Source of the DNA: Erysipelotrichaceae bacterium
Lineage (GTDB): Bacteria; Bacillota_I; Bacilli_A; Erysipelotrichales; Erysipelotrichaceae
NCBI GenBank assembly: GCA_017539025.1
Contig: JAFYHT010000071.1
Span: 310,001 to 374,000, forward strand
Reading direction: 5' to 3'
DNA length: 64,000 bases
Shown: in pieces, positions 53,416-61,013 of the stretch
How the letters are laid out: every line of letters begins with the position of its first letter
Position numbering within the stretch: the first letter of the stretch is position 1
Notes under the pieces: model-generated
Database searches by the model: none
Seen by the model: the letters and a program-made list of their open reading frames with translations, nothing else
What the model was told of the DNA's origin: nothing
Translations under genes and position numbers: made by a program

Positions 53416-55131
53416 ATGAAAAAGATAATAATTAAGCTTTTGATCTTTGTTTTAACGTTCAGCGCTTTATCATATGTGGTTTTTCATCAGAATGAGGAAC
53501 ACGATCATTTACATGTTCATGTATATGAGGTAGAAGCGTTGACAGTGAACTGTCCATACTGTGGACAGGCAATGGCTGTGGAATCCGAAGGTGAACCAAC
53601 TTGTACGCAAGGAGTACAGTACTGGGCTTATTGTCAAAATGAAAGCTGCCCTGGACGCGATCCTGTAACACTTGATTATTATGAAACCAGTGGTATTGCA
53701 CCGGCTTTGGGTCACGACTACAACGCAATCATAGAAGTGGAAGCAACTTGTACCGAATCCGGAGTTACAAGATACACCTGTTCAAGATGCGGAGATACAT
53801 ATAGAAGCTATCCTGAAGCTTTAGGTCATGATTACAGATATAAAGTGACTAAGGAAGCCACTTGTACAGAAGATGGTGTCAGAACTTATACGTGTACGAG
53901 GTGCAAGGATAAGTACACCAGAAAGATCACAAAATTAGGTCACGATATCAAACTGGAAGAGAAAGAAGCTACCTGCACAGAGGACGGATACAAGAGAGGC
54001 AAATGTTCCCGTTGCGATGAGGCAATCGATGAATTCTATCCGGCCTTAGGCCATGACATGGTGTATACAGTAACCAAAACTCCGACCTGTACGGAAGATG
54101 GTGAGAGAGAAGGTGTCTGCAGCAGGTGCGGCGAAAAAGTTACTGAGAAAATACTGGCTCCAGGCCACAAGTACCCTGCAGAATGGACCAGAGAAAAAGA
54201 ACCTTCCTATACGGAAGAAGGACTTGAATCAAAAACCTGTTACTACTGTGGTAACAAGATCACTCAACCGATCCCGAAATTGGACGCAACACCGATCGTT
54301 GCGGGAGGTGGAGCTGTAGCTGCTGCAGCCGGAGGTGGTCTGTGGCTGTATCTGAAAAAACTGAGAGCCGCCAAGTATGCGAAACAAGCAATCAAAGGGA
54401 TCAGGAAATTTGAAAAGCCTTCCTTTGAAGACAGATCTGTTATGGTGTCTTCCAAGTTTGAAGATCTGATGAACGTCTTGAAAGAAAAATCATTCCTGGA
54501 AGTCACATCCTGTGAGGATGGAGAGATCGAGGAATCGATCGAAGAAGCAGGACCGGATCTGTTGATCCTTGATGTTTTAAGTGAAGAAAGACTGGAAGAA
54601 CTCTTAAAGCAGAAAGAAGAAGCTTTGGCTGATTATCCGGTTGGCGTTGTGACAACAGAGGAATTCATCGCTGATCACAAGGAACAACTTGATCAACTGG
54701 TGAAAGATAAGAAGATCCTTAACTACATTTCTTATGGCAGTGATGCGAACAAGATCATGTTGAAACTGATCGCTCCAATACTGAAACCGGATATCAAGTC
54801 AGATGAATCATTAGGAAACATCGGTGCAGTAGCTGATTTCATCGGCATCCCTGCAGTTTCAACTCTGATCGATGTCTATGTTTCCGGAAGAGATATCAAA
54901 TCGACTCTGGAGAGTGACGAGATCGGCATGTCCGAAGCAGCAACCATCATTGGTGATCTCGCATCGATACTGGGTTATGATGGAGTCGCTTCTGTTGCCG
55001 GATTGGTAGACGATGTCGATTCTGTCAAGGCAGCTTTGGATAAAGAGGCCGGTGCCTATGAAGGAAAGAACGCCATCAGCGGTGCCAAGGATATTGTTGA
55101 AGTCGTATCGGATATCATAGATAAAGATTAG
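53416..55131 (+). CDS. Transmembrane protein with extracellular cysteine-pair repeats and cytosolic pseudo-receiver, copy 1
   Basis: A 571-residue protein from ATG 53416; longer in-frame starts upstream are not supported, while this one begins MKKIIIKLLIFVLTFSALSY like its paralogue and has GGGG upstream. After the signal segment comes His-rich EEHDHLHVHVYE, then about five repeats of 40-45 residues with pattern 'C(T)E.G...Y.C.RC...Y.....ALGHDY' (about 70-290). They combine TC, CxxC and GH elements that could bind zinc. A transmembrane helix (AVAAAAGGGLWLYL) follows at about 305. The cytosolic part has a receiver-like fold (VMVSSKFEDLMNVL, GPDLLILDVLSEERLEELL, VGVVTTEEF), then a helical C-terminus. 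Function unknown; a sensor is inferred. Confidence 0.8.
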   Translation: MKKIIIKLLIFVLTFSALSYVVFHQNEEHDHLHVHVYEVEALTVNCPYCGQAMAVESEGEPTCTQGVQYWAYCQNESCPGRDPVTLDYYETSGIAPALGHDYNAIIEVEATCTESGVTRYTCSRCGDTYRSYPEALGHDYRYKVTKEATCTEDGVRTYTCTRCKDKYTRKITKLGHDIKLEEKEATCTEDGYKRGKCSRCDEAIDEFYPALGHDMVYTVTKTPTCTEDGEREGVCSRCGEKVTEKILAPGHKYPAEWTREKEPSYTEEGLESKTCYYCGNKITQPIPKLDATPIVAGGGAVAAAAGGGLWLYLKKLRAAKYAKQAIKGIRKFEKPSFEDRSVMVSSKFEDLMNVLKEKSFLEVTSCEDGEIEESIEEAGPDLLILDVLSEERLEELLKQKEEALADYPVGVVTTEEFIADHKEQLDQLVKDKKILNYISYGSDANKIMLKLIAPILKPDIKSDESLGNIGAVADFIGIPAVSTLIDVYVSGRDIKSTLESDEIGMSEAATIIGDLASILGYDGVASVAGLVDDVDSVKAALDKEAGAYEGKNAISGAKDIVEVVSDIIDKD

Positions 55132-55149
55132 TATATTGGAGATTATGTT

Positions 55150-56976
55150 ATGAAGAAAATATTGATAAAAACTTTATTACTCATACTGGTGTTCAGCAGC
55201 TTATCTTTTGCGGTTTTTCGTGATCACGAACAGGAAGAACACGATCACTTACATGTTCATGTTTATGAAACAGAAGCTGCTGATTATGGAAATTGTTCAG
55301 TTTGTGGCAGCGCCATGGAAGGCGGAGTCATTATGGAAGCAACCTGTACAGATGCAGGAGATGCAGAGATTTGGTGTGGAAACAGTTCGTGTTCAGAGTA
55401 TGAAATCACGTATGGTTACACCATTCCTGCTCTTGGCCACGCATATCAGGAAAGTGTAGTTTCTGCTGCCACCTGTACTAATGGTGGAACAAACGTTTAT
55501 ACTTGCAGCAGATGCGGTGAATCATATACCAGAAACACTTCGGCATTGGGTCACGCATATCAGGAAACAGTCGTGACTGCCGCTACATGTACAAAAGGTG
55601 GATTAAATTCTTATAAATGCAGCAGGTGTGAAGATACTTATACAAAAGAGACCGCCGCTCTTGGCCACAACTATAAATCAAAAGTAACAAAAGAAGCCAC
55701 TTGTGAAGAAGATGGCGAAAGAACTTATACCTGCAGCAGGTGTGAAGATAAATATACAAAGAAGATCGAGAAATTAGGCCATGATATCAATCTCGAAGAA
55801 AAGGAAGCAACCTGCACAGAAGACGGATATAAGAAAGGCATATGTAAGAGATGTAATAAAGAAATCAATGAAGTTACTCCTGCTTTAGGTCATGATCTGG
55901 AGTTTGTCGTAACCAAGACCCCGACTTGTACAGACGATGGTGAAAGAGAGGTAGAGTGCAAGAGATGCGGTGAGAAGTTCACTGAGAAGATCCTGGCTTT
56001 CGGTCATAAGTTTCCTAAGGAATGGACTTTAGAGAAAGAGCCTTCCTATACGGAAGAAGGACTGGAATCAAAGACCTGTTACTATTGTGGTGAAAAGATC
56101 ACTCAGGCTATTCCGAAACTTGACGCAACACCGATCATTGCCGGAGGCGGTGCGGGTATTGCGCTGGCCGGTGGTGGCTTATGGATGTGTCTGAAGAAGC
56201 TCAAGGCAAAGAAACTTCTTAAAGAGAAAGTAAAAGATCTTGATATCAGGAAATTCGAGAAGCCTTCCTTTGAAGATAAATCGATCCTGGTCTCATCCAA
56301 GGATGAAGATCTGATGGCGATCTTAAAGAATCAGTCAAAGCTGGAGGTCACATCTTGTGATGATGATCAGATCGAAGAAAAAGTTGAAGAAGATGGACCG
56401 GATCTGTTGATCGTCGATGTCTTGAGCGAAGAAAGACTGGAAGAGCTCTTAAAACAGAAAGAAGAAGCTCTGGCAGAACAGACCATCGCCGTTATGACGA
56501 CAGACGAATTCCTTGAAACTCACAAAGAAAAACTCAAGAAACTGGTCAAGGAAAAGAAGATCCTGAACTATCTTCCATACGCCAGCGAGAAGACACCGAT
56601 CATGATGAAGTTCGTCCTTCCAATATTGAAACCGGATCTCAAGTCGGACGAATCATTAGGCAATATCGGTGCTGTCGCGGACTTCTTGGGAATCCCTGCG
56701 GTATCGACTGTGATCGATCTCTATACTTCCGGAAGAGATATCAAATCTACTTTGGAGAGTGAAGAGATGGGAGTTTCCGAGATCTCTACACTTATCGGAG
56801 ATATCGCTTCAGTATTGGGCTATGATGGAGTCGCTTCCGTGGCAGGACTGGTCGATGACATCGATTCCGTCAAAGCAGCACTGGATAAGGAAGCCGGTGC
56901 CTATGAAGGAAAGAACGCCATCAGTGGTGCAAAGGATATCGTTGAGGTAGTATCGGATATCATAGATAAGGATTAG
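55150..56976 (+). CDS. Transmembrane protein with extracellular cysteine-pair repeats and cytosolic pseudo-receiver, copy 2
   Basis: A 608-residue paralogue encoded 18 nt downstream, with the same order: signal segment (MKKILIKTLLLILVFSSLSF), EEHDHLHVHVYE, about six Cys-pair repeats (one more than copy 1; e.g. TCTKGGLNSYKCSRCEDTY, TCEEDGERTYTCSRCEDKY), transmembrane helix (AGGGAGIALAGGGLWMCL), receiver-like domain (GPDLLIVDVLSEERLEELL) and a C-terminal region. The last 25 residues (EAGAYEGKNAISGAK and on) are identical to copy 1, while the N-terminal repeats differ. That suggests strong constraint or gene conversion on the cytosolic end and variation outside. It ends at a bidirectional terminator. 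Confidence 0.8.
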   Translation: MKKILIKTLLLILVFSSLSFAVFRDHEQEEHDHLHVHVYETEAADYGNCSVCGSAMEGGVIMEATCTDAGDAEIWCGNSSCSEYEITYGYTIPALGHAYQESVVSAATCTNGGTNVYTCSRCGESYTRNTSALGHAYQETVVTAATCTKGGLNSYKCSRCEDTYTKETAALGHNYKSKVTKEATCEEDGERTYTCSRCEDKYTKKIEKLGHDINLEEKEATCTEDGYKKGICKRCNKEINEVTPALGHDLEFVVTKTPTCTDDGEREVECKRCGEKFTEKILAFGHKFPKEWTLEKEPSYTEEGLESKTCYYCGEKITQAIPKLDATPIIAGGGAGIALAGGGLWMCLKKLKAKKLLKEKVKDLDIRKFEKPSFEDKSILVSSKDEDLMAILKNQSKLEVTSCDDDQIEEKVEEDGPDLLIVDVLSEERLEELLKQKEEALAEQTIAVMTTDEFLETHKEKLKKLVKEKKILNYLPYASEKTPIMMKFVLPILKPDLKSDESLGNIGAVADFLGIPAVSTVIDLYTSGRDIKSTLESEEMGVSEISTLIGDIASVLGYDGVASVAGLVDDIDSVKAALDKEAGAYEGKNAISGAKDIVEVVSDIIDKD

Positions 56977-56987
56977 TAAAACATAAG

Positions 56988-57020
56988 AAAAGATCATTCC
57001 TTTAATCGAATGATCTTTTT
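56988..57020. terminator. Bidirectional terminator
   Basis: AAAAGATCATTC (56988-56999) pairs with GAATGATCTTTT (57008-57019), with T runs on both strands, serving the cysteine-repeat genes and the convergent TIR gene. Confidence 0.92.
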
Positions 57021-57026
57021 ATGTGT

Positions 57027-59066
57027 CTATTGATTGACCAGAACGAATCCGCATTGCTTCAACATGAATTCTTTCAGATTGTTGAAGAAGCCGTTTCCGT
57101 CTGATGTATCGATCCTGCCGTTGAACAGCATGACAGGCAAGAATATCATTTCCTTTCTTTCATCTCTTGTGAGATCGCCGATGGAGAAAAGGACTTTTAA
57201 TGGGATGCTTCCCGGATCGGAATAGGATCCGCCATATTCTTTGACTTTCGATACTCTTGTCGTCTTGACGATATCCAGGACTTTGGATCCGACCATAACT
57301 CTGAAGCTGAAGGCAACATCTCTTTCAGCTGCTTTGTCAGGCATCTTGTCGAAACATTTGATGAATCTCTGCAAGAGGAGTTCGATCTCATTGAAATCCA
57401 CTTTCCACAGATTGGATCTCCTGTTGATCATTTCCAGTAATTCAACGTATTCATACCAGGCTTCCTTGTCTCTGAGTTTTGTGATACGCTGCAGATCCCA
57501 GTTATCAAGGTAGAGATTGGCTCCGATCGTTTCGATCTCATCCATGATCTCGCAATTGCCGAAGAATTCGGAGAATGCGTATTGTAATTCATCGATACTG
57601 ACTTCTTTTTCTCCCGATGAGATAAACAGGGAATGTAAGAAGTAGTTTTCCGGACGGATGTCATCCGGTAATAAGGAATCACATTGAAGTGTATGTCCGA
57701 AGATTGAGTTGTAGTAGATATCGATCAGGCGTTTCAGTTCGTGATGGAACGGTTTCTGCGGGTCGAACTTGCAGGAGAAGACCGCATCTTCATCATATCC
57801 GTCTTCTCTTTGAACGATGTAGTTGGAATAGAAGAGCGATCTGCTGTAATCATCGACCTTGTCCTGTGCCTGGGTACCGTTCATATGAGTCTGACAGAAT
57901 GCCTGCATGGATATCGTCTTGAGTGTGATCAGAAATGGGTTGATCTGATCCTCACTCAGATGCATGGCTTGTGCCAGAAGGACGTTGTTGTTGTGGTCCA
58001 TGGCAAGATTGGAAGTGAAGCGTAAGAATTCCTTGGTATGTACATCGGAAGTCGATGACCAGTTTTCTCTGATGCAGTAGATGGATACTTCATCGCATAT
58101 CGCGTTCCATGCTTTATATACTTCTTCCTGGGCTTCTTTTGTCGTGTGGAAATGGATGAACGGAGTCATCTGTTTGTTGTTGAGCAGGACCACGATAGAG
58201 CCGTTGGATAAAAGCTTTTTGAATGCATCCTTGTCTTCGCTCTCATTGACGATCAGCTTCTGGAAATATGGGTCATATAATAGGGTATTCAATTTAATGA
58301 TGACCTGCTTGTACTGGAAGAAGGGATATGCGAAATTCTTCTGCTTGAAAAGGGAAAGAGAGTCTTTCACGTTTTGTGAGACAAAGCCTTCTTTTTCAAA
58401 TTCCTTGTGCAGATCGCTGGTGCTGTCATAGAAGACTTCCGGCAGCCATTGATTATCCAAGGCAAAAGGATAGACTGCTGAAGGAGCCAGGTCAGCTGCG
58501 TATACCTTGTAGTAGATATTGTTTCCCAGGTTATCAAATGCTTTTTCCGGAGTGGAGTTCTGGTTGATGAATCCGTTTTCGTTGTTTGGTCTGTAAAGAT
58601 CGATGCTTCCTTCATCGATTCCCAAGTGGCGGATGACGGAAAGCAGATTCTTCATCGATTCGATCGTGACTTCGCCATAGGCGGAGAGTGGGATGTACTG
58701 GTATTGGGAAAGATACTTTCTGATGGCAGAAACGCTTTCGTCGTCTCTGAACCAGGAAGGATGGATCTGGCCGATGACGACGAAGAAAACGCGGAAGCTG
58801 TCCGTTCCTTCTTCTTCCATCCTTTTCAAAGAGAAGTTGATTTCCTTGAGGACTTCATCTCTTCTCAAGGAAGATGCGGAAAGGATGCCGATGACGACAT
58901 CCGCTTCTTTTAATGCGGTTTCGATGCTGGAGGCCCACTGTTCGCCTAAAGAAAGATTCTGCGAATCGATCCAGACATCGCAGCCGTGACGGGCCAGATA
59001 GCGGGCGATGCCGTGTGCACAGGCACCATCCTGGTGGGAATATGAGATGAATACTTTTTCTGCCAT
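57027..59066 (-). CDS. TIR-domain protein with large C-terminal region
   Basis: A 679-residue protein. The start ATG 59066 has AAAGGAG 8 nt upstream, so the longer frame from 59153 is not used. Residues 1-140 are a TIR domain: KVFISYSHQD (box 1), YLARHGCDVWIDSQNLSLGE, ALKEADVVIGILSASS and RRDEVLKEI, whose Glu is placed like the TIR NAD-cleaving residue; then RVFFVVIGQIHP. Residues about 150-679 match nothing I recognise and are mostly soluble alpha/beta. TIR proteins act as NADases or nucleotide-signal makers in bacterial immunity, or as scaffolds. It diverges from the TM-RyR gene at 59172, suggesting a joint function. Confidence 0.88.
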   Translation of the reverse strand: MAEKVFISYSHQDGACAHGIARYLARHGCDVWIDSQNLSLGEQWASSIETALKEADVVIGILSASSLRRDEVLKEINFSLKRMEEEGTDSFRVFFVVIGQIHPSWFRDDESVSAIRKYLSQYQYIPLSAYGEVTIESMKNLLSVIRHLGIDEGSIDLYRPNNENGFINQNSTPEKAFDNLGNNIYYKVYAADLAPSAVYPFALDNQWLPEVFYDSTSDLHKEFEKEGFVSQNVKDSLSLFKQKNFAYPFFQYKQVIIKLNTLLYDPYFQKLIVNESEDKDAFKKLLSNGSIVVLLNNKQMTPFIHFHTTKEAQEEVYKAWNAICDEVSIYCIRENWSSTSDVHTKEFLRFTSNLAMDHNNNVLLAQAMHLSEDQINPFLITLKTISMQAFCQTHMNGTQAQDKVDDYSRSLFYSNYIVQREDGYDEDAVFSCKFDPQKPFHHELKRLIDIYYNSIFGHTLQCDSLLPDDIRPENYFLHSLFISSGEKEVSIDELQYAFSEFFGNCEIMDEIETIGANLYLDNWDLQRITKLRDKEAWYEYVELLEMINRRSNLWKVDFNEIELLLQRFIKCFDKMPDKAAERDVAFSFRVMVGSKVLDIVKTTRVSKVKEYGGSYSDPGSIPLKVLFSIGDLTRDERKEMIFLPVMLFNGRIDTSDGNGFFNNLKEFMLKQCGFVLVNQ

Positions 59067-59099
59067 AGAAAGACTCCTTTCATGGTTGATCCTATCCTC

Positions 59100-59126
59100 A
59101 TTATATAAGACTGATGAGTGTATAAT
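59100..59126. promoter_or_regulatory. Back-to-back -10 elements of the TIR and TM-RyR genes
   Basis: Reverse strand TATAAT at 59105-59100 (TIR gene, leader about 27 nt) and forward TATAAT at 59121-59126 (TM-RyR gene, leader about 40 nt) lie 15 bp apart. -35 matches are poor on both sides. Confidence 0.55.
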
Positions 59127-59171
59127 AAAGAGTGATATACAGATCAGGATCATACCAGAAGGAGAAGGGCT

Positions 59172-61013
59172 ATGTGGAGATATATAGAAGTGGCTTTGAT
59201 CGTCATACTGTTTGGCTTATGGTACTCATTGAAAAGAAAAGGAGATCTTCGTTCCAAGACGCTGGCGCTTTCAGCTGTTCTTTCTTTTGCGATCTCGATC
59301 CTGGTATTCCCATACTATGACAAGGGAAGCGATCTGCCGATTGCGATCATACAGGCTTTCCGTGCCGGCCTTTCCGGTATTTCAATGGGCGTCAATGGCG
59401 ATATCCCGTATTCCCTGGAGATGTCAAGGAATGAATTCCTGGTCTATCGCTTTTTCCTGTATCTTCTGTATATCATCGGTCCAATGGTCACTTCCTTGTT
59501 CCTGTTTTCTTTGTCTTCTACCGCAAGGACTCTTTTCTCTTTCTTTGGAAATAAGACGTTCCACGTCTTTTCCGCTTTGAATGACAAGACTCTCAAGATC
59601 GCTTCCAGTATCCTTGATGACAGGAAAGGAAACGTCGTCATCTTCTGTTCTACAAAAGATGTAAGTGATTCCCTGGTTAACAAAGCAAAATCCATGAGAG
59701 CCTTGACTGCCAACTTTCCGATCGAAAGGATCCATCTCTATAAGAACAGGGAATATGAATTCTATCTGCTGGAAAAGGATGATCATGAGACGATCGTAAG
59801 AAGTGCAGCATTCTGTGAAGCTCTCATAAAGAATAAGAAATATTGTTCAGAGAATGTCATCGTCAGAGTATTTGCTTCAGATTCACAGAGAGAACTGATC
59901 CTGAATCTGGACAGACAGTATGCGGATAAAGTCTATCTGCGTCACATCGATATCGATCAGTCTCTGGCAATCGATGCGATGACAAAATGTATCGATGATC
60001 TGGCAGTGAAGAAGGACTTGAGTGTCGCAGTCGTTTCAGACAGCGATATCGCGATCCCTTTTATAAAAAACCTCATCTGTTTGATGATCAAGCCGGATGG
60101 AAACAACAGGATCTCTCTGATCTCTCCAAGTGCGGATAAGCTCTATTCAAAACTGAAGAAAGAAGCTCCGGAAGCAGATCACTACGAGATCGATGTCTGT
60201 ACCCTGGCATATGGAAATGAAAGCAGGGCGTTTGATGGAATGGCAAATCCCGATCTGGTGTTCGTATTATATGAAGATGATGAACTTTCCTATGAGACTT
60301 CAATGAGACTCAAGAGAGATCTTTCCGCCAGAAGCGAAGATCTGTCCTGTCCGAAGATCATGTGCCGCATCGAAGACAGCGATCTGCACAAGATCATCAA
60401 GGATGAAGACATCTCTCTGTTTGCGGATCTCAAGGAGATCCTGACCTATTCCAAGCTGGTCAATCCGACGCTGGAGAAGGCTGCAAGCAGAGTCCACCTG
60501 ACTTATCTTTCCATGTATGATGATCTTAAGGGACAGGATCTGGAAAAGGCACTGGAAGAAAGCGGATTCTATCAGTATCAGAATCAGGAGCCTTCTTTTG
60601 CGGAAGCTCTGGCTTTGTGTTTCAAGAAGAAATACATATTGTCGCTAAAGGACGATGATTCTCTTTCCGATGATGAATTCATTGAGAAATGGCTCAGCGA
60701 TGAAGACAATCTTCAGAAGATGGGCGATGCGGAACATGACAGATGGAATGCCTATCAGAGGCTGCATGGCTGGTGTCATGCGGATGAAAGGCAGATCAGG
60801 GCGATCATTGAGAAATACAAAGGAAAACGTGCCAACGATCCAGAACTGAAACTGCATCCGGCGATCGTTTCCAATGAAGAACTGTTCGATCGTGAGTATC
60901 TGATCAACTCGGTGTTGAAAGAGTATGGCAGCGATTACCGCGTCCATTATTGCGATGCGGATAAGGCGATCATCAGAAAGATCACGTATATCCTCAAGGG
61001 AACGGATCTTTAA
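59172..61013 (+). CDS. Membrane protein with Rossmann-like regions and C-terminal RyR-like domain
   Basis: A 613-residue protein. Residues 1-125 hold three or four transmembrane helices (YIEVALIVILFGLWYSL, ALSAVLSFAISILVF, FFLYLLYIIGPMVTSLFLF). Residues about 130-270 and 275-400 look like two Rossmann-type units (KGNVVIFCSTKDVSDSLVNK; DLSVAVVSDSDIAIPFIKNL; PDLVFVLYEDDE), similar in layout to TrkA-N/RCK parts of channel proteins. Residues about 515-600 resemble the ryanodine-receptor RyR repeat: AEHDRWNAYQRLHGW, then LKLHPAIVSNEELFDREYL (usual 'HE.W...+...GW', 'HP.L...eEL'). AGAAGGAGAAGG precedes the ATG. A ligand-gated membrane effector paired with the TIR protein is inferred. Confidence 0.7.
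   Translation: MWRYIEVALIVILFGLWYSLKRKGDLRSKTLALSAVLSFAISILVFPYYDKGSDLPIAIIQAFRAGLSGISMGVNGDIPYSLEMSRNEFLVYRFFLYLLYIIGPMVTSLFLFSLSSTARTLFSFFGNKTFHVFSALNDKTLKIASSILDDRKGNVVIFCSTKDVSDSLVNKAKSMRALTANFPIERIHLYKNREYEFYLLEKDDHETIVRSAAFCEALIKNKKYCSENVIVRVFASDSQRELILNLDRQYADKVYLRHIDIDQSLAIDAMTKCIDDLAVKKDLSVAVVSDSDIAIPFIKNLICLMIKPDGNNRISLISPSADKLYSKLKKEAPEADHYEIDVCTLAYGNESRAFDGMANPDLVFVLYEDDELSYETSMRLKRDLSARSEDLSCPKIMCRIEDSDLHKIIKDEDISLFADLKEILTYSKLVNPTLEKAASRVHLTYLSMYDDLKGQDLEKALEESGFYQYQNQEPSFAEALALCFKKKYILSLKDDDSLSDDEFIEKWLSDEDNLQKMGDAEHDRWNAYQRLHGWCHADERQIRAIIEKYKGKRANDPELKLHPAIVSNEELFDREYLINSVLKEYGSDYRVHYCDADKAIIRKITYILKGTDL

Follow-up and report, generated by a model that had tools for sequence, protein, structure and literature searches.

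Two tandem genes (A and B) encode paralogous single-pass membrane proteins in which a chain of Cys/His repeats, predicted to lie outside the cell, is connected through one membrane helix to a cytosolic domain, which has a predicted receiver fold and a degenerate phosphorylation site, and to a highly conserved C-terminal tail. The best explanation, to which we give about an even chance of being right, is that A and B are kinase-free single-pass receptors that signal via the pseudo-receiver and the tail to a partner, and their relatives suggest an undescribed sensor family. This architecture, an exchange of ectodomains over the same cytosolic part and two recurrent gene neighbourhoods were computed from the genomes compared.

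Arrangement of the gene pair

The genes belong to a 2.35 Mb draft genome and lie in the window, that is, the whole stretch of 64,000 nucleotides that was analysed. A sequence-only reading of this DNA had placed two tandem open reading frames at 53416-56976, and we confirmed both the coordinates and the arrangement, with 18 bp between the stop of A and the start of B and 69% identity between the paralogues as aligned. Neither protein is matched above cut-off by Pfam, NCBIfam or PADLOC, and no RNA families were found near the two genes. The features of the pair are the following:

53416..55131, + strand: gene A, 571 aa single-pass membrane protein (open reading frame)
53416..53490, + strand: A, N-terminal hydrophobic segment (signal peptide or signal anchor; end approximate), hydropathy 2.4, Lys-rich before and acidic after
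53500..53529, + strand: A, HDHLHVHVYE, exact
53749..54168, + strand: A, four exact C-x9-CxxC-x12-H repeats (53749-53829, 53863-53943, 53974-54054, 54088-54168)
54202..54285, + strand: A, degenerate last repeat, CxxC retained, first Cys and His gone
54286..54354, + strand: A, Gly-rich membrane helix, then Lys/Arg (ends approximate)
54415..54786, + strand: A, pseudo-receiver domain, by alignment to the modelled domain of B
54787..55128, + strand: A, conserved helical C-terminal tail
55150..56976, + strand: gene B, 608 aa single-pass membrane protein (open reading frame)
55150..55224, + strand: B, N-terminal hydrophobic segment (end approximate), helix 2-24 in the model
55240..55269, + strand: B, HDHLHVHVYE, exact
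55474..56007, + strand: B, five exact C-x9-CxxC-x12-H repeats (55474-55554, 55588-55668, 55702-55782, 55813-55893, 55927-56007), predicted as beta hairpins (pLDDT ~80)
56041..56124, + strand: B, degenerate last repeat
56125..56193, + strand: B, Gly-rich membrane helix, then Lys/Arg (ends approximate)
56260..56631, + strand: B, pseudo-receiver domain, AlphaFold2 pLDDT ~90-95 over most of it, Z 14.1 to 2qxy; domain Asp53 is encoded at 56416-56418
56632..56973, + strand: B, conserved helical C-terminal tail

The decapeptide HDHLHVHVYE, the N-terminal hydrophobic segment and the single membrane helix are present in both proteins as had been claimed; the helix is Gly-rich and followed by Lys/Arg. 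The "five or six" repeats of the same reading are reached only if the degenerate last repeat is counted, as the exact units number four in A and five in B.

A and B stand closer to one another than either does to the tandem genes of locus L001, which has the same surroundings, and the last stretch of the two genes shows 93% DNA identity; this likeness may reflect gene conversion or separate duplications. Divergent to A lies a gene for a PnuC-type nicotinamide riboside or mononucleotide transporter (PF04973; 52020-53240) with an extra N-terminal part, and this gene order recurs at locus L001.

A predicted cytosolic pseudo-receiver and its tail

The cytosolic part comprises ~240 residues, the first 124 of which were modelled with confidence as a receiver fold (AlphaFold2, 34 cytosolic sequences), with five alternating strands and helices in the (beta-alpha)5 order of receivers and a pLDDT of mostly 90-95. 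The matches listed for this model in a structural alignment were nearly all response regulators (best 2qxy, Z 14.1, rmsd 2.4 A, 114 residues) and the full-length model agrees, so that the receiver-like fold proposed by the sequence-only reading is now predicted with high confidence. The Pfam receiver model PF00072 remained below its cut-off, matching only two of the 34 members (best E 0.03); we therefore claim a receiver-like fold, which rests on predicted structure with weak sequence models, and not membership by sequence. Active-site positions were assigned in the 34 members from the alignment and the model: the acidic pair is replaced in most by S, C or A followed by S or T, the Thr and Lys positions are variable, and the Asp is found in 30. 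A pseudo-receiver has been defined as a receiver without at least one of DD, D, T and K (PMC12632262), and the cytosolic domain of A and B as modelled is a pseudo-receiver by this definition.

The tail, already described as conserved, is the best conserved segment, with a mean column identity of 0.75 compared to 0.55 in the receiver part, which suggests that it may serve as an output or docking surface. Its seven helices are predicted with low to middling confidence and its fold is uncertain. No recognisable output domain follows the pseudo-receiver, making signalling to a partner protein more likely than the one-component signalling suggested by the sequence-only reading, and there is no histidine kinase domain or other kinase family among the Pfam matches of A and B.

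Ectodomain repeats and membrane topology

The C-x9-CxxC-x12-H units have spacings of 9 and mostly 12, and at least two of them were found in 0 of 20,000 shuffles of the residues of B. Each offers four conserved ligand positions at fixed spacing, as zinc-binding repeat proteins do, and structure prediction, proposed for the repeats by the sequence-only reading, gave the beta hairpins listed above. The degenerate last repeat (PSYTEEGLESKTCYYC) is without the first Cys and without the His. This pairing is general among the CxxC units, with first Cys and His both present in 146, both absent in 56 and seven exceptions, although orthologous repeats do not count as independent cases. Such joint retention or loss would be expected of a single four-ligand metal site in each repeat, and most likely each Cys-Cys-Cys-His set binds one Zn2+ for folding. 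For the repeat copies tested, no Pfam or NCBIfam model reached cut-off and weak matches to many zinc-finger models were obtained. A Foldseek search with the full model listed long beta-rich chains, which were taken as generic; no zinc-ribbon was among the matches listed, which excludes nothing.

The repeats were found in 9 of the 85 genera sampled from the phylum. Among the chains read, five repeat-bearing ones from elsewhere start with a lipoprotein-type signal as judged by eye, and another protein of the A/B genome (L010) has one repeat copy near its C-terminus, indicating a general, probably extracellular, module. Unrelated chains of secreted or lipoprotein-like type at L085, L086, L087, L088, L089 and L092 also contain the repeat. 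The charge bias of both hydrophobic segments fits the positive-inside rule for an outside ectodomain and, taken with the repeats in lipoprotein-like chains, leads us to infer strongly that the repeats lie outside the cell, in line with the earlier assignment; the opposite topology was rejected on the same two grounds. No sortase C-terminal sorting signal was recognised, the NCBIfam sorting models being below cut-off in A and B, and the ~240 conserved residues after the membrane helix are unlike such an end-of-chain signal. Of the 33 members with Cys repeats, 28 have an HxH motif close to the N-terminus, and one of the remaining five is truncated at that end; the 4 members with other ectodomains have none (Fisher p 0.001, computed on 27/31 and with shared descent ignored).

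Relatives and ectodomain exchange

The architecture and its conserved neighbours, which the sequence-only reading had proposed to look for, were both found in other genomes. Searching with a profile built on the membrane and cytosolic regions identified members in 28 of the 272 genomes of the bacterial family. The genus of A and B, with 36 genomes, accounts for 24 of these, its own genome being counted, and two further genera account for the other four. Within the bacterial family, the protein family is confined to three genera, and a third of the own genus is without a member. The nearest named relatives of A and B are from Erysipelotrichaceae MAGs from ruminants. Searches of the order, class and phylum (the last two as samples) gave no further genus and viral contigs gave no relative; one extra match in the wider searches (G455) was rejected by eye as part of an SNF2-type helicase. 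At locus L005 a member lies on a contig that was assigned to a Faecalibacterium bin, a genus distant from the host family, through either mis-binning or transfer.

Four members carry another ectodomain over the constant cytosolic module. In L025, L058 and L060, which form one supported clade, the ectodomain is different and Cys-free, and L038 has WG repeats (PF14903, E 2.4e-24) followed by the start of a similar cytosolic domain, cut by the contig end. This swapping is the strongest sign in support of the receptor idea.

Two recurrent neighbourhoods

In the window, B is convergent with a gene for a TIR-domain protein, beyond which lies a divergent membrane-protein gene:

56988..57019, no strand: terminator-like stem between the convergent B and TIR genes (consensus match only)
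57027..59153, - strand: TIR-domain protein, candidate partner (PF13676 E 4.7e-19), adjoining a receptor gene in 8 genomes
59172..61013, + strand: membrane protein whose C-terminus bears an RyR-like motif, encoded divergently to the TIR gene and co-occurring with the TIR protein; the Pfam RyR model matches only below cut-off, in one relative

Receptor and TIR protein occur together in 16 genomes of the genus (at most 100 bp apart in 8, within 6 kb in 3 more, apart in 5); in 8 others of the genus a receptor is encoded but the TIR protein is missing. The outer flanks of the receptor-TIR loci differ between groups, and the linkage is clustered on the cytosolic-domain tree and may have few origins. 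Of the 36 genomes of the genus, 16 encode both the TIR and the RyR-like protein and 3 encode one alone, an almost perfect co-occurrence (p 3e-7), compared to a weaker one of receptor and TIR protein (p 0.006), both uncorrected for descent. Between the relatives aligned the TIR protein is about 70-75% identical, a conservation that is unusual for a defence gene. It has no full-length match among known anti-phage components, as the matches cover the TIR domain alone and fall well short of the NCBIfam cut-offs; the TIR family profile matches AbTIR 8g83 (E 0.004).

Eight other loci, spread over three genera, have a 5'-nucleotidase-type gene (PF02872, PF00149) immediately upstream of the receptor gene, with the adjacency in G129 and G133 taken from coordinates. 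In the six loci measured, the two genes overlap or are at most 2 bp apart in five and 10 bp apart in one. At L045, L047, L052, L054, L055 and L057 the upstream gene abuts or overlaps the receptor gene as if translationally coupled. The TIR protein was found in 0 of the 6 own-genus genomes with the nucleotidase arrangement. Both recurrent neighbours belong to nucleotide-acting families, which is the basis for proposing that such an enzyme, TIR protein or 5'-nucleotidase, is perhaps the receptor's partner.

Discussion

We propose that, outside the cell, small beta-hairpin repeats strung in a chain and holding one putative Zn2+ each would recognise a ligand or surface, and that ligand binding or clustering would be relayed inwards through the Gly-rich membrane helix to the pseudo-receiver. 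The pseudo-receiver would be closed to phosphorylation of the usual kind and act as a binding module; with the helical tail it would dock onto a partner, for which the neighbourhood offers the TIR protein in the own lineage and the 5'-nucleotidase-type phosphoesterase in relatives as candidates. A bolder version, which we regard as unlikely, is that a nucleotide-acting enzyme, the TIR protein in one branch and a coupled 5'-nucleotidase in another, is switched directly by the pseudo-receiver and tail, which are tethered to the membrane and driven by interchangeable ectodomains.

An alternative explanation is that A and B are surface adhesins or structural proteins in which the pseudo-receiver and tail are a mere anchor or scaffold, with no transmembrane signal. 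Repeats of this type are a common module in large surface proteins, and a pseudo-receiver with neither an output domain nor an intact phosphorylation site would suit such a role; however, the cytosolic part is conserved far beyond what an anchor needs and is retained while ectodomains change, which makes this reading rather improbable. The Cys/His repeats and His-rich N-terminus could also form a sensor of the amount of extracellular zinc, as the fixed Cys/His spacing and the association of HxH with Cys-repeat members (28/33 against 0/4) would suggest. Yet the same repeats are found in many other surface proteins, suggesting structural zinc, the recurrent neighbours are not metal-uptake genes, and members with metal-free ectodomains retain the same cytosolic part, so that we consider zinc sensing very unlikely.

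It is also conceivable, though doubtful, that stress or defence is the role of a TIR-based system with the receptor as its sensing arm: on activation by a signal from outside, the TIR protein would consume NAD or produce a nucleotide signal to which the RyR-like membrane protein responds. The convergent TIR gene, adjoining in 8 genomes and near in 3 more, with differing outer flanks, and the TIR/RyR-like co-occurrence (shared descent ignored) argue for it, but the receptor stands without a TIR protein in eight genomes of the genus, relatives have another neighbour, the TIR protein shows a conservation unusual in a defence gene, and known systems give no full-length match. We retain the kinase-free receptor as the best explanation. 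Points against it are the narrow range of the protein family, its absence from a third of the own genus, the 5 of 16 genomes in which the TIR gene lies elsewhere, the uncertain fold of the tail, a receiver relation that rests on predicted structure, and a TIR linkage of perhaps few origins. How pseudo-receivers switch without phosphorylation has been described as a mystery (PMC12632262), and a pseudo-receiver wired directly to a membrane helix makes this question testable, given the ectodomain swaps that occur in nature and the two recurrent neighbourhoods. A and B point to a receptor family unrecognised by current domain libraries, whose interest would grow if the receptor were shown to control the TIR protein or nucleotidase.

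In the literature searched for membrane-bound pseudo-receivers or response regulators we found no precedent, which is not proof of absence. TIR-based systems such as Thoeris share a TIR domain with the neighbour of B, but no listed system matches the TIR protein full-length and none matches A or B. Zinc-ribbon and zinc-finger repeats resemble the Cys-x9-Cys-x2-Cys-x12-His sets in beta-hairpin repeats, whereas the repeats of A and B are predicted to be extracellular and, in the copies tested, have no Pfam model at cut-off. Hybrid sensor histidine kinases likewise combine an outside sensor, a membrane helix and a cytosolic receiver-type domain; A and B differ in being without a kinase domain and in their degenerate receiver. 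Bacterial pseudo-receivers or aspartate-less receivers (PMC12632262, PMC4395418) similarly combine the receiver fold and a degenerate phosphorylation site, whereas the domain of A and B is below the Pfam receiver cut-off, is followed by a helical tail instead of a DNA-binding or enzymatic output, and forms part of a bitopic membrane protein whose ectodomain is large.
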